A stretch of DNA of 64,000 nt from Georgenia satyanarayanai. Its GTDB lineage: Bacteria; Actinomycetota; Actinomycetes; Actinomycetales; Actinomycetaceae. The translations under genes were made by a program, and so were the position numbers. Of the stretch, positions 5,789-25,905 are shown piece after piece. The stretch covers positions 627,802 through 691,801 of the forward strand of contig NZ_UETB01000001.1 in the NCBI RefSeq assembly GCF_900116375.1, given 5' to 3'. Positions within the stretch are counted from its first letter, which is position 1. Each line of letters begins with the position of its first letter. The notes beneath the pieces are model-generated. The model was not told where the DNA came from, did no database searches, and saw only the letters and a list, made by a program, of their open reading frames with translations.

Positions 5789-7759
5789 TCAGGACCCCGT
5801 GGATCGCAGGATCTGGTCGAGCCAGGACTTCCGCGCCTCGAGCGCCGCGGCCGCCTCCTTCTCGGCCCGGGGGTCACCAGCGGCGCGCGCCTGCGCCAGC
5901 TGCTGCTCGAGGCCGTCGATCGCCTCGTAGAGCTGGGCCGCCGCGCCCTCGGCGCGGGCCTTCTTCTCCGGGTCGCTGCGGCTCCACCGCTCCTGGTCCG
6001 CGTCGCGCACGGCCTGCTCGACCGCCCGCATCCGGCCCTCGACCCGCTGGACGTCGCTACGCGGGACCTTGCCCGCCTCGTCCCACTTGTCCTGGATCGG
6101 GCGCAGGGCCGCCTTCGCGGCCTCCGGGTCGGTGACCGGGAGCAGCGCCTCCGCCTGCTCGAGCAGCGCGAGCTTCACCTCGAGGTTGGCCGCGTACTCG
6201 GCGTCGATCTGGGCGTTCTCGTTCTCCCGGGCCTCGTAGAAGGCCTGCCGGGCGGCGCGGAAGCGCGCCCACAGGGCGTCGTCCTCCTTGCGGCTGGCGC
6301 GGCCGGCGGCCTTCCACCGGTCCATCAGGTCCCGGTACGCGGCGGACGTGCGCCCCCAGTCCTTCGAGGTCGACAGCGCCTCGGCCTCGGCGATGAGCTG
6401 CTCCTTGGCCCGCTTGACCTCCGACTGCGTGGCGTCCAGCTGGGAGAAGAAGTGGCCCCGGTTGCGGTCGAAGGTCGTCCGCGCGCGGGAGAACCGCTTC
6501 CACAGCGCGTCCTCGGTGGGACGGTCCAGACGCGGGCCCGAGCGCTGAGCCTGCTTCCACTGGTCCAGGAGCGCGCGGAGCTCGTCACCGCTGGAACGCC
6601 AGTGGGTGCTGGCCGGGTCCGCGGCGGCGATGGCCTCGGCGCGCTCGACGACCGCCGTGCGCTCCTCGAGCGCCTTGGCCTTGGCGGCCTCGCGCTCGGC
6701 GCTGATCTCCTTGCGGCGGGCTGCCGCGCGCTCCCGCAGCGTCTCCACGCGGGCGCGCAGACCGTCGAGATCCCCGACGGCCGCCGGCTCGGCCAGCGCC
6801 TCGGTGAGCGTGGCCAGGGTCTGGTCGATCTCCTTGGTCTGCAGCTGGGGCAGGCGGGTCTCGAAAAGCAGCATCTGTGCCTGGAGGTCGAGGAAGCGGC
6901 GGACGTAGAAGGCGAGGGCCTCGTCCATGTCGGCGCCGGTGTACTGGCCAACGGTGCGCTCCCCGGCGGCCTCGCGCACCCAGACGGTGCCGTCCGGGTC
7001 CACCCGACCCCAGGCGGCCGCCGCTGCGGCCTCCTTGGCGTCGTCGAGGACGGGAGCGACCACGGCCGGCGCGGGCGCCGCGCCCGGTGCCTGCGCCGCG
7101 GGCTTGCGCAGGGCGGAGGGCTTGGGCAGCGGCCGGGGCCGGGGGACCGCCGTGGGCCGCGGTGCGGGCGCGGGTGCCTCGGCGGCCTCGGCCTCGATCG
7201 CGCCACCGGGCTCCGCCGAGGCGGGCTCGGTGTCCGCCTGCACCGCGGGTGCCTCGGGCTGCTCGGCGGGGGCGTCTGCCTGCTCGGCGGGTGCGTCTGC
7301 CTGGTCCGCGGGGGCGTCTGCCTGCTCGGCGGGTGCGTCTGCCTGGTCCGCGGGTGCGTCCGCCTGCTCGGCGGGTGCCTCGGGCTGCTCGGCGGGGGTG
7401 TCCGCCTGCTCGGCGGGTGCCTCGGGCTGCTCGGCGGGTGCCTCGGGCTGCTCGGCGGGGGTGTCCGCCTGCTCGGCGGGTGCCTCGACCTGCTCGGCGG
7501 GGGCGTCGGCCGGCCCGGTGGCGGCCTCCGGCTCCTCGGCGGCCTCTGCGGGCGCCGCAGCCTGCTCGGAGGGTGCGTCGGCGCCGGCGTCCGGCTGCGA
7601 GGGGGACTCCTCGACCGGCTCGGCGTCGGCCTGCTCGACGGGAGCGCCCTGCGTGGCAGCAGGAGCAGGCGGCAATCCCCCCTGCTCCGTCAGCGCCACG
7701 CTCTCGATCGCGTCCGCTGTCGGCTCGTCCGCGGGGTGCGGGGTCTGCTGCTCAGTCAA
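5789..7759 (-). CDS. DUF349 protein with long Pro/Ala/Glu/Gln heptad repeat
   Basis: A 656-residue cytoplasmic protein. The N-terminal ~260 residues are low-complexity and acidic, with 13 tandem heptads of the type PAEQADA/PAEQPEA (residues 87-177). The rest is helical, with at least three DUF349 repeats recognisable by conserved Trp positions (THWRSSGDELRALLDQWK, SKDWGRTSAAYRDLMDRWK, ALRPIQDKWDEAGK). The start is TTG, preceded by AGGAG 6 nt upstream. It overlaps the ppiA stop by 8 bp, so translation is probably coupled. DUF349 next to a cyclophilin gene and hisS is a conserved actinobacterial arrangement. The biochemical role is unknown. Confidence 0.93.
   Translation of the reverse strand: MTEQQTPHPADEPTADAIESVALTEQGGLPPAPAATQGAPVEQADAEPVEESPSQPDAGADAPSEQAAAPAEAAEEPEAATGPADAPAEQVEAPAEQADTPAEQPEAPAEQPEAPAEQADTPAEQPEAPAEQADAPADQADAPAEQADAPADQADAPAEQADAPAEQPEAPAVQADTEPASAEPGGAIEAEAAEAPAPAPRPTAVPRPRPLPKPSALRKPAAQAPGAAPAPAVVAPVLDDAKEAAAAAAWGRVDPDGTVWVREAAGERTVGQYTGADMDEALAFYVRRFLDLQAQMLLFETRLPQLQTKEIDQTLATLTEALAEPAAVGDLDGLRARVETLRERAAARRKEISAEREAAKAKALEERTAVVERAEAIAAADPASTHWRSSGDELRALLDQWKQAQRSGPRLDRPTEDALWKRFSRARTTFDRNRGHFFSQLDATQSEVKRAKEQLIAEAEALSTSKDWGRTSAAYRDLMDRWKAAGRASRKEDDALWARFRAARQAFYEARENENAQIDAEYAANLEVKLALLEQAEALLPVTDPEAAKAALRPIQDKWDEAGKVPRSDVQRVEGRMRAVEQAVRDADQERWSRSDPEKKARAEGAAAQLYEAIDGLEQQLAQARAAGDPRAEKEAAAALEARKSWLDQILRSTGS
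7229..7501 (-). repeat. 21-bp tandem coding repeat, 13 units
   Basis: Thirteen in-frame 21-bp units inside the DUF349 gene, each coding a PA(E/D/V)Q plus three-residue heptad. The last triplet of residues alternates between ADA, ADT, PEA and VEA. Near-identical units at the DNA level make it a candidate variable-number repeat. Confidence 0.9.
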
Positions 7760-24195: not shown

Positions 24196-24209
24196 CCACC
24201 CCACCTCCC

Positions 24210-24325
24210 GCCGAGAGCTGACTCACCCCCCTCCCGCCGACAGCGCACTTGTCGCCGACCGCCGACCTCCCGCCGACAGCGCACTTGTCGCCGACAGCGC
24301 ACTTGTCGCCGACAGCTGAATCACG
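24210..24325. repeat. Upstream 18-bp repeat array flanking rarA
   Basis: Three exact copies of GCCGACAGCGCACTTGTC at 24236, 24272 and 24290, with a degraded unit at 24254 and a variant unit ending TGAATCAC at 24308, all on an 18-bp period. A further variant (TGACTCAC type) lies at 24210. The array stops 28 bp before the rarA -10. Confidence 0.9.
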
Positions 24326-24353
24326 CCCGACGCACCCACCGCGCGGCGCGACG

Positions 24354-24359
24354 TAGGCT
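24354..24359 (+). promoter_or_regulatory. -10 hexamer of rarA, leaderless
   Basis: TAGGCT, 6 nt, GTG at 24366. No Shine-Dalgarno sequence. Confidence 0.62.
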
Positions 24360-24365
24360 CCGGGC

Positions 24366-25703
24366 GTGGACCTCTTCGACTCCGTGGGCGCCGACGACGC
24401 CGGCACCCCCGCCGCCCGTCCGGACGCGCCGCTCGCCGTGCGGATGCGTCCCGCCTCTCTCGCCGAGGTGGTCGGCCAGGAGCACCTGCTCAAGCCGGGC
24501 GCGCCCCTCCGGCGGCTCGTCGAGCCGGGCGGTACCTCCCGTGCGTCCTCGGTCATCCTCTGGGGGCCGCCGGGTACGGGGAAGACGACGCTGGCCTACC
24601 TCGTCGCCCACGCCTCCGGGCGTCGCTTCGTCGAGCTCTCCGCCGTGACCGCCGGCGTCAAGGACGTCCGACAGGTCGTCGAGGACGCCCGGCGGCGCCT
24701 CGTGAGCACCGGCGGGGAGACGGTCCTGTTCATCGACGAGGTGCACCGCTTCTCCAAGACCCAGCAGGACGCGCTCCTGCCGTCGGTCGAGAACGGATGG
24801 GTCACCCTCGTGGCGGCGACGACGGAGAACCCGAGCTTCTCCGTCATCTCCCCGCTCCTGTCCCGCTCCCTGCTCCTCACCCTCCAGCCGCTGGAGGAGG
24901 AGGACATCCGCGCGCTGGTGGCACGGGCACTGGAGGACGAGCGCGGGCTGGGCGGGCGCTACGAGCTCGCCGACGACGCCCTGAACCACCTCGTGCGGCT
25001 GGCCGGTGCCGACGCGCGCAAGGCGCTGACCATCCTCGAGGCCGCGGCCGGCGCCGCGGACGACGCCGGGACGATCGACCTGCCGACGATGGAGCGCGCC
25101 ATCGACGTCGCAGCGGTGCGCTACGACCGCGACGGCGACCAGCACTACGACGTCACGAGCGCCTTCATCAAGTCGATGCGGGGTTCGGACGTCGACGCCG
25201 CGCTCCACTACCTCGCCCGGATGATCGTCGCGGGGGAGGACCCCCGCTTCATCGCGCGGCGCATCGTCATCGCGGCTGCCGAGGAGGTCGGCATGGCCGA
25301 CCCGACGGCGCTCCACACCGCCGTCTCCGCCGCGGACGCCGTCGCATTCATCGGGATGCCCGAGGGTGCGCTCGTCCTGGCCCAGGCGGTCGTCCACATC
25401 GCGACGGCGCCCAAGTCGAACGCCTCCTACCGGGCCATCGGCGAGGCCATCGCGGACGTCCGCGCCGGGAAGGCCGGGCCGGTGCCGCCGCACCTGCGCG
25501 ACTCGCACTACGCGGGGGCGAAGAAGCTCGGCCACGGCACCGACTACGTCTACGCCCACGACGTCCCCCACGCCATCGCCTCCCAGCAGTATCTGCCGGA
25601 CGAGCTCGTCGGACGCCGGTACTACGAGCCCCGCCCACGCGGGCTGGAGCGGGACATCACCACCCGCCTCGAGCGCATCCGCGACATCCTCGGCAACGGC
25701 TGA
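24366..25703 (+). CDS. rarA: Replication-associated recombination protein A (AAA+ ATPase)
   Basis: A 445-residue AAA+ ATPase that acts at stalled replication forks and on single-strand DNA-binding protein. Walker A is GPPGTGKTT (about residues 67-75), Walker B FIDEVHRF, sensor 1 ATTENPSF and sensor 2 region [12 protein letters not shown]. The C-terminal MgsA tetramerisation domain contains [20 protein letters not shown]. Length is normal. It is unusual in being bracketed by two inverted arrays of an 18-bp repeat, one just before its promoter and one 25 bp after its stop. Confidence 0.96.
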
Positions 25704-25727
25704 CGTCCCGGCGCCGGTGCCCCCGTC

Positions 25728-25835
25728 CGGCGGGAAGTGCGCTGTCGGCGGGAAGTCCGCTGTCGGCGGCAAGTGCGCTGTCGGCGGCAAGTGCGCTGTC
25801 GGCGGGAAGTGCGCTGTCGGCGGGAAGTGAGTGGG
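25728..25835. repeat. Downstream 18-bp repeat array flanking rarA (inverted relative to the upstream array)
   Basis: Six units on an exact 18-bp period from 25728. Five are CGGCGGGAAGTGCGCTGT or differ by one base (units 2, 3 and 4), and the sixth is degenerate. The reverse complement ACAGCGCACTTCCCGCCG matches the upstream array unit at 16 of 18 positions. Confidence 0.92.
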
Positions 25836-25836
25836 C

Positions 25837-25860
25837 GGGTGCGGGTGCGGGTGCGGGTGC
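25837..25860. repeat. GGGTGC hexanucleotide repeat, 4 copies
   Basis: Four perfect GGGTGC units directly after the 18-bp array. The 317-bp gap between rarA and rpsD is thus filled by the array, this repeat, and the rpsD promoter and leader. Confidence 0.85.
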
Positions 25861-25905
25861 GGCGGAGGTCACAGGGGGGCTACGCCGACGCCGGGAGGGC
25901 GCTGG

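Follow-up and report, generated by a model that had tools for sequence, protein, structure and literature searches.

The window, a 64,000-nucleotide stretch of DNA, contains rarA (mgsA), a gene for an AAA+ ATPase that is bracketed by two arrays of 18-bp units pointing towards each other. The gene product matches the Pfam families MgsA_C, AAA_assoc_2, and AAA, and the nearest named RarA proteins, from Cellulomonas, Actinotalea, Isoptericola, and Antribacter, are 72–75% identical. The locus comprises the following features:

24196..24235, + strand: 5' leader of the upstream array, C-rich and outside the bracket, recognised from sequence
24210–24227, + strand: outlying variant unit GCCGAGAGCTGACTCACC inside the upstream leader, recognised from sequence
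24236..24325, + strand: upstream array of five 18-bp units with a degenerate 3' end
24354..24359, + strand: TAGGCT, probable -10 element of rarA, from sequence and comparison
24366..25703, + strand: rarA (mgsA), encoding an AAA+ ATPase and lying between the arrays; begins with GTG at 24366
25714..25731, - strand: last unit of the downstream array, at its 3' end and degenerate, recognised from sequence
25732..25821, - strand: downstream array, five units of GCCGACAGCGSACTTSCC, convergent with the upstream array
25822..25864, - strand: outer leader of the downstream array, rich in C when read on the - strand, from sequence and a TRF period of 6

The upstream array has exact copies of GCCGACAGCGCACTTGTC at 24236, 24272, and 24290 and variant units at 24254 and 24308, as a sequence-only reading of this DNA had claimed. 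That reading also counted six downstream units, five of which are in register (25732–25821, - strand), whereas the sixth is degenerate; TRF reports 5.7 copies with a 95% match. Upstream and downstream units differ at 2/18 positions, in agreement with the reported 16/18 reverse complement, and the two arms are 85% complementary over 93 nt at a distance of 1,424 nt. The window contains eight unit matches (up to three mismatches) versus 0.21 expected from shuffled sequences, and 0/100 shuffles reach eight. Both arrays carry the C-rich leader on their outer side, which the sequence-only reading had overlooked together with the genome-wide spread of the family and the conservation of the bracket in the genus; the downstream leader reads (GGGTGC)n on the + strand with a quadruplex-type motif. 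The directional arrays, the leader, and the degenerate far-end unit recall CRISPR, but the period of 18 bp is continuous, spacers are absent, and there are dozens of arrays per genome. TAGGCT sits between the upstream array and rarA and is kept in the closest relatives, and we infer from its sequence a promoter role for rarA; a generic promoter scan found no sigma-70 site there, and Rfam gave no convincing family at the locus. An unrelated 21/63-bp coding tandem repeat, (PAEQADA)n-like, occurs at 7232–7542 of the window in a 656-aa - strand ORF (5789–7759).

The rarA locus is one array site among many. When at most two mismatches are allowed, the 18-mer has 77 + 41 matches throughout the genome of the window (G000, 3.9 Mb) versus 1 + 2 for the reversed control, which amounts to at least 118 units in about 40 arrays, and a sister motif, M (CCGASNGCTGAGTTGTT), is present in 129 + 125 copies (254). 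The comparison set consisted of G000 and five other species of the genus (G001 to G005); the reversed-sequence control was unusable for G005, whose unit is too similar to its reversed form. Genes were called by a custom script rather than by standard gene-finding software. Because the G000 DNA was in large part taken from around known arrays, unbiased rates come from G005 and the syntenic regions. Apart from single chance-like matches, searches covering 213 genomes from the family and 297 from the order place the repeats in this genus alone, and none of 80 other actinobacteria has such an array beside rarA. Searches of an open-access literature collection found no account of this repeat system, nor of AbiEi with DUF559.

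Arrays lie upstream (+) and downstream (-) of rarA in G000, G001, G002, G004, and G005, and G003 has the downstream array only; the unit varies by species, and G002 and G004 have an upstream period of about 51 bp and, downstream, a hairpin-type element. Measured by the earlier reading's own refuting condition, the repeat is dispersed and shows no preference for rarA, although rarA bears arrays in 6/6 species. The suggested site acted on by RarA is not supported, given the 80 array-free rarA flanks and the many unrelated genes that are bracketed, and we rejected a RarA-specific function because arrays bracket many other genes; rarA itself is no part of the repeat system. The arrays had further been proposed to form an invertible switch, in which recombination between them flips rarA. 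The 85% complementary inverted arms are suited to this, but the orientation of rarA relative to both arrays is constant in the species compared and inversion was seen at none of the bracketed genes examined; flipping is rejected because the orientation is conserved, and we give it almost no credence.

Other orthologous intergenic regions likewise have arrays at shared sites, mostly in unchanged orientation (with one exception, site 168/169), and the sequence changes from species to species. Each species has its own dialect of the unit, and the dialects are built on a 13-bp core (CGASAGCNNRNTT). In syntenic regions, exact GCGCACTT occurs 18 times in G000 and 0 times elsewhere, and exact CGASAGCCGASTT occurs 62 times in G005, 34 times in G001, and 0–1 times elsewhere. 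Whole +/- elements were gained in single lineages, some being found in one species only. Dispersed, amplified, and gained by lineage, the family fits the earlier idea of an inverted mobile or amplifying repeat. Units differ less within an array (2.67 differences) than between arrays (3.71), and we found no pair-specific homogenisation, as paired arrays are not more alike than unpaired ones. At site (227,228), G000 carries an 18-bp array, but G002 and G004 carry direct and inverted copies of another repeat, GACGCACCTCC. A further hairpin dialect, CGAGCGCTGGATC, for which no matching nuclease was seen, occurs at sites (85,86) and (124,125) of G005 and may survive from a family that has since been lost.

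The arrays are polar, with a C-rich leader, then the units, and a ragged 3' end. The 5' edge is sharp and follows a C-rich tract (mean C 0.72 in intergenic arrays of G005, 0.65 in G000, and 0.57 in G001; background 0.36), and a quadruplex-type motif is found on the opposite strand in 56% of G005 5' flanks versus 3% of 3' flanks and 2.2% of background. A degenerate extra unit marks the 3' edge in 38–56% of arrays. In the inner units of G005, a single base reaches a frequency of at least 95% at nine or ten positions, and positions 6, 10, and 13 are C/G mixtures. Arrays within genes are mostly in the sense direction and in a single reading frame that encodes (A-D/E-S-x-L-x)n. Several in-gene 18-bp arrays of G000 (L146 9879–9995, L157 3441 and 10346, L158 9867, and L143 9950) are sense and in one frame, giving the proteins (ADSALT)n-type linkers; one of these genes is a probable TrmH/SpoU-type methyltransferase.

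Placement was assessed in a 1.08-Mb stretch of G005, in which 28 of 449 intergenic regions bear arrays. Convergent gene ends are enriched (13/28 array-bearing regions versus 71/449 overall, p = 7e-5), and divergent regions are depleted (1/28 versus 131/449, p = 9e-4). A gene-sense rule for intergenic arrays was rejected, with 8 sense and 8 antisense arrays between co-directional genes in G005.

Of 14 pairs of neighbouring arrays separated by 450–2,500 bp, 13 are +/-, 0 are -/+, and 1 is same-direction; the 13 convergent pairs represent about 11 distinct sites. This polarity is common to gene-bracketing pairs, the rarA pair included, and to close pairs. M motifs within 200 bp of each other are +- 19 times and -+ 3 times among the matches listed. 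Minimal hairpins fold at -40 and -36 kcal/mol, and at site (219,220) the minimal hairpin of G004 has a counterpart in G002 whose identical outer arms enclose expanded arrays. Some arrays are therefore amplified hairpin arms, and this accounts for the polarity of the close pairs. One convergent pair is present at an orthologous FAD-dependent-type gene in both G000 (L170 6227–6840) and G005 (gene 772), with one array upstream and the other antisense within the reading frame.

Polarity and placement could also reflect transcription boundaries, in which the arrays are directional terminators, the C-rich leader serving as Rho entry ahead of the array, and convergent pairs shield the gene between them. 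The enrichment at convergent gene ends (13/28 versus 71/449), the leader 5' of the arrays, the convergence of gene-bracketing pairs, and the hairpins of -36 to -40 kcal/mol all agree with such a role. However, site (120,121) already has a strong GC hairpin ahead of its array, sense and antisense arrays are equally frequent between co-directional genes, some arrays lie within open reading frames, and both the dialects and the nuclease link described below would be left unexplained. We regard this role as quite unlikely.

Outside the window, a gene bracketed by arrays (G000:C20:84375-85289) codes for an AbiEi_4/AbiEi_1 protein whose C-terminus is MTES_1575/DUF559-like. AbiEi_4 and AbiEi_1 match 7/7 members of this group, PADLOC AbiEi models also give matches, and the C-terminal matches of member 1 are below the Pfam cut-offs (MTES_1575 20.5 bits versus 38.2; DUF559 13.7 versus 20.6). 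Residues of the D-E-x-D-H type are invariant across the nuclease alignment, and comparison with solved structures matched none. Arrays adjoin 9/9 close nuclease copies, from six species, versus 0/11 distant homologues (p = 6e-6); two of the nine are partial, at contig ends, and may be one broken gene, and the seven complete copies give p = 3e-5. Where both flanks are readable, arrays occur on both sides in 5/7 copies, always convergent, and the G001 and G003 genes have an array on one side only. The earlier suggestion of a protein-binding array is compatible with this link to a nuclease with a DNA-binding domain, and the earlier interpretation as a whole is partly supported.

The arrays flanking each nuclease carry the matching dialect: G000 has two nuclease genes and two dialects, one each, and so does G004. 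The second G004 nuclease, of the M dialect, is broken at two contig ends (C10:79-768 and C27:75-305; L310 and L311), with an inserted element as the probable cause. In the nuclease tree, copies cluster by dialect and not by species. M nuclease copies of G000 and G004 are 96% identical and GGATT copies of G002 and G004 are 95% identical, compared with 62–73% between the two copies within one genome; the ACTT group has weak support (71/66) and spans three dialects. Genomes with an M nuclease have 254 and 195 M copies versus 31, 6, 0, and 0 in those without, and, as predicted beforehand from the M pattern, GGATTCC is abundant in G002 (168) and G004 (137) versus 22, 15, 1, and 0 elsewhere, although these comparisons of dialect and copy number are not fully independent because the six species are related, and copy numbers partly reflect ancestry. 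The nuclease genes occupy at least four loci, one of which holds different clades in G003 and G000. A GTGCTCCACA-like element is conserved 5' of the nuclease genes in every copy read (L303–L310) and is a possible promoter or operator. Close full-length homologues, often in 2–4 copies, are found in other Actinomycetales families (E down to 1e-95) and stand clearly above the generic background of about 1e-26 to 1e-32. In plasmids, phages, and viral contigs, homologues are distant or lacking.

Neutral minisatellites would need no dedicated enzyme: arrays would expand by slippage beside quadruplex-prone tracts, ordinary gene conversion would keep them similar, and the nuclease genes would be bystanders. 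The sharp leader edge and ragged far edge, the C-rich leaders with quadruplex-type motifs, and the greater likeness of units within arrays (2.67 versus 3.71 differences) suit this account, which we nevertheless judge very unlikely given the 9/9 versus 0/11 association, copy numbers that track the presence of the nuclease, fixed core positions, and the convergence of 13/14 long-range pairs. The AbiEi-type protein may instead act chiefly as a DNA-binding regulator or nucleoid protein, with the arrays as its operator clusters, kept matched by selection, with a nuclease domain that spreads nothing. Autoregulation of AbiEi through inverted repeats in its own promoter (PMC7319586), arrays upstream of most nuclease genes, constrained core positions, and sites conserved between species speak for such a regulon. 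It is unlikely, as only 1/28 array-bearing intergenic regions of G005 is of the divergent, promoter-containing type, many arrays lie within coding sequence or downstream of genes, and whole elements are present in one species only.

The AbiE type IV toxin–antitoxin system (PMC7319586) has the same N-terminal AbiEi DNA-binding domain and repeats that flank its own gene, but the proteins described here join AbiEi to a nuclease-like domain, and their putative sites are genome-wide. DNA uptake sequences of Neisseriaceae (PMC3630211) similarly form species-specific dialects around a conserved core, which is what recommends reading the arrays as uptake signals. Uptake sequences number thousands of single copies, whereas G000 has about 118 units and 254 M copies, hundreds that are concentrated in tandem arrays and between genes, and one genome can have two unrelated dialects, each with a matching nuclease gene; we consider this reading extremely improbable. 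Measured against a MITE or transposon, inverted ends are present, and no target-site duplication was recognisable at the few filled and empty sites inspected.

Among known systems, the best-studied short dispersed bacterial repeats with a dedicated enzyme are the REPIN–RAYT systems, whose enzyme is an HUH transposase. They consist of REP doublets with REP-associated tyrosine transposases (PMC3116915). As in these systems, the repeats described here are short, dispersed, and mainly extragenic, form inverted hairpin pairs and tandem clusters, and fall into several sequence classes per genome, each adjoining its own enzyme gene, with enzyme and repeat classes that co-evolve. The partner, however, is AbiEi–DUF559-like and not a Y1/HUH transposase, and the unit is no palindrome but is arranged in polar 18-bp arrays with a C-rich leader and in long-range convergent pairs that bracket genes. 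The RAYT domain Y1_Tnp (PF01797) is absent from all six genomes, and control genomes were positive.

The family, its polarity, its dialects, its conserved sites, and the nuclease–dialect match are established, and the match points to a repeat system that propagates itself and centres on a novel class of enzyme. We favour, with moderate confidence, the explanation that these are genus-specific dispersed repeats whose trans-acting partner, an AbiEi-type winged-helix/DUF559/MTES_1575-like nuclease matched to the dialect, spreads the arrays. The AbiEi domain would bind the 13-bp core, which is plausible by analogy because known AbiEi proteins bind promoter inverted repeats and so autoregulate (PMC7319586). 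The nuclease domain would then nick or cut at or near the core, and repair would copy in array sequence from another site, so that cutting and copying would together spread the arrays and hold one dialect genome-wide. Arrays would lengthen by local tandem duplication beside the C-rich leader, and loss of the nuclease would leave hairpin relics. Copying of single arrays does not directly explain the gene-bracketing pairs, and the rarA pair would be a convergent pair that has long resided at a site where it is tolerated, RarA having no specific part in it.

The broader proposition, that AbiEi–DUF559-like nucleases are the engine of a transposase-independent, self-spreading repeat system in which enzyme and dialect co-evolve, is put forward tentatively, at slightly less than an even chance. 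The two dialects and two nucleases of G000 and G004 make the idea directly testable. If it is true, part of a large, uncharacterised actinobacterial nuclease family would acquire a role, and the close homologues in other Actinomycetales families would make the system widespread. A second, unrelated enzyme following the REPIN–RAYT logic would then mean that such a genome lifestyle evolved more than once.
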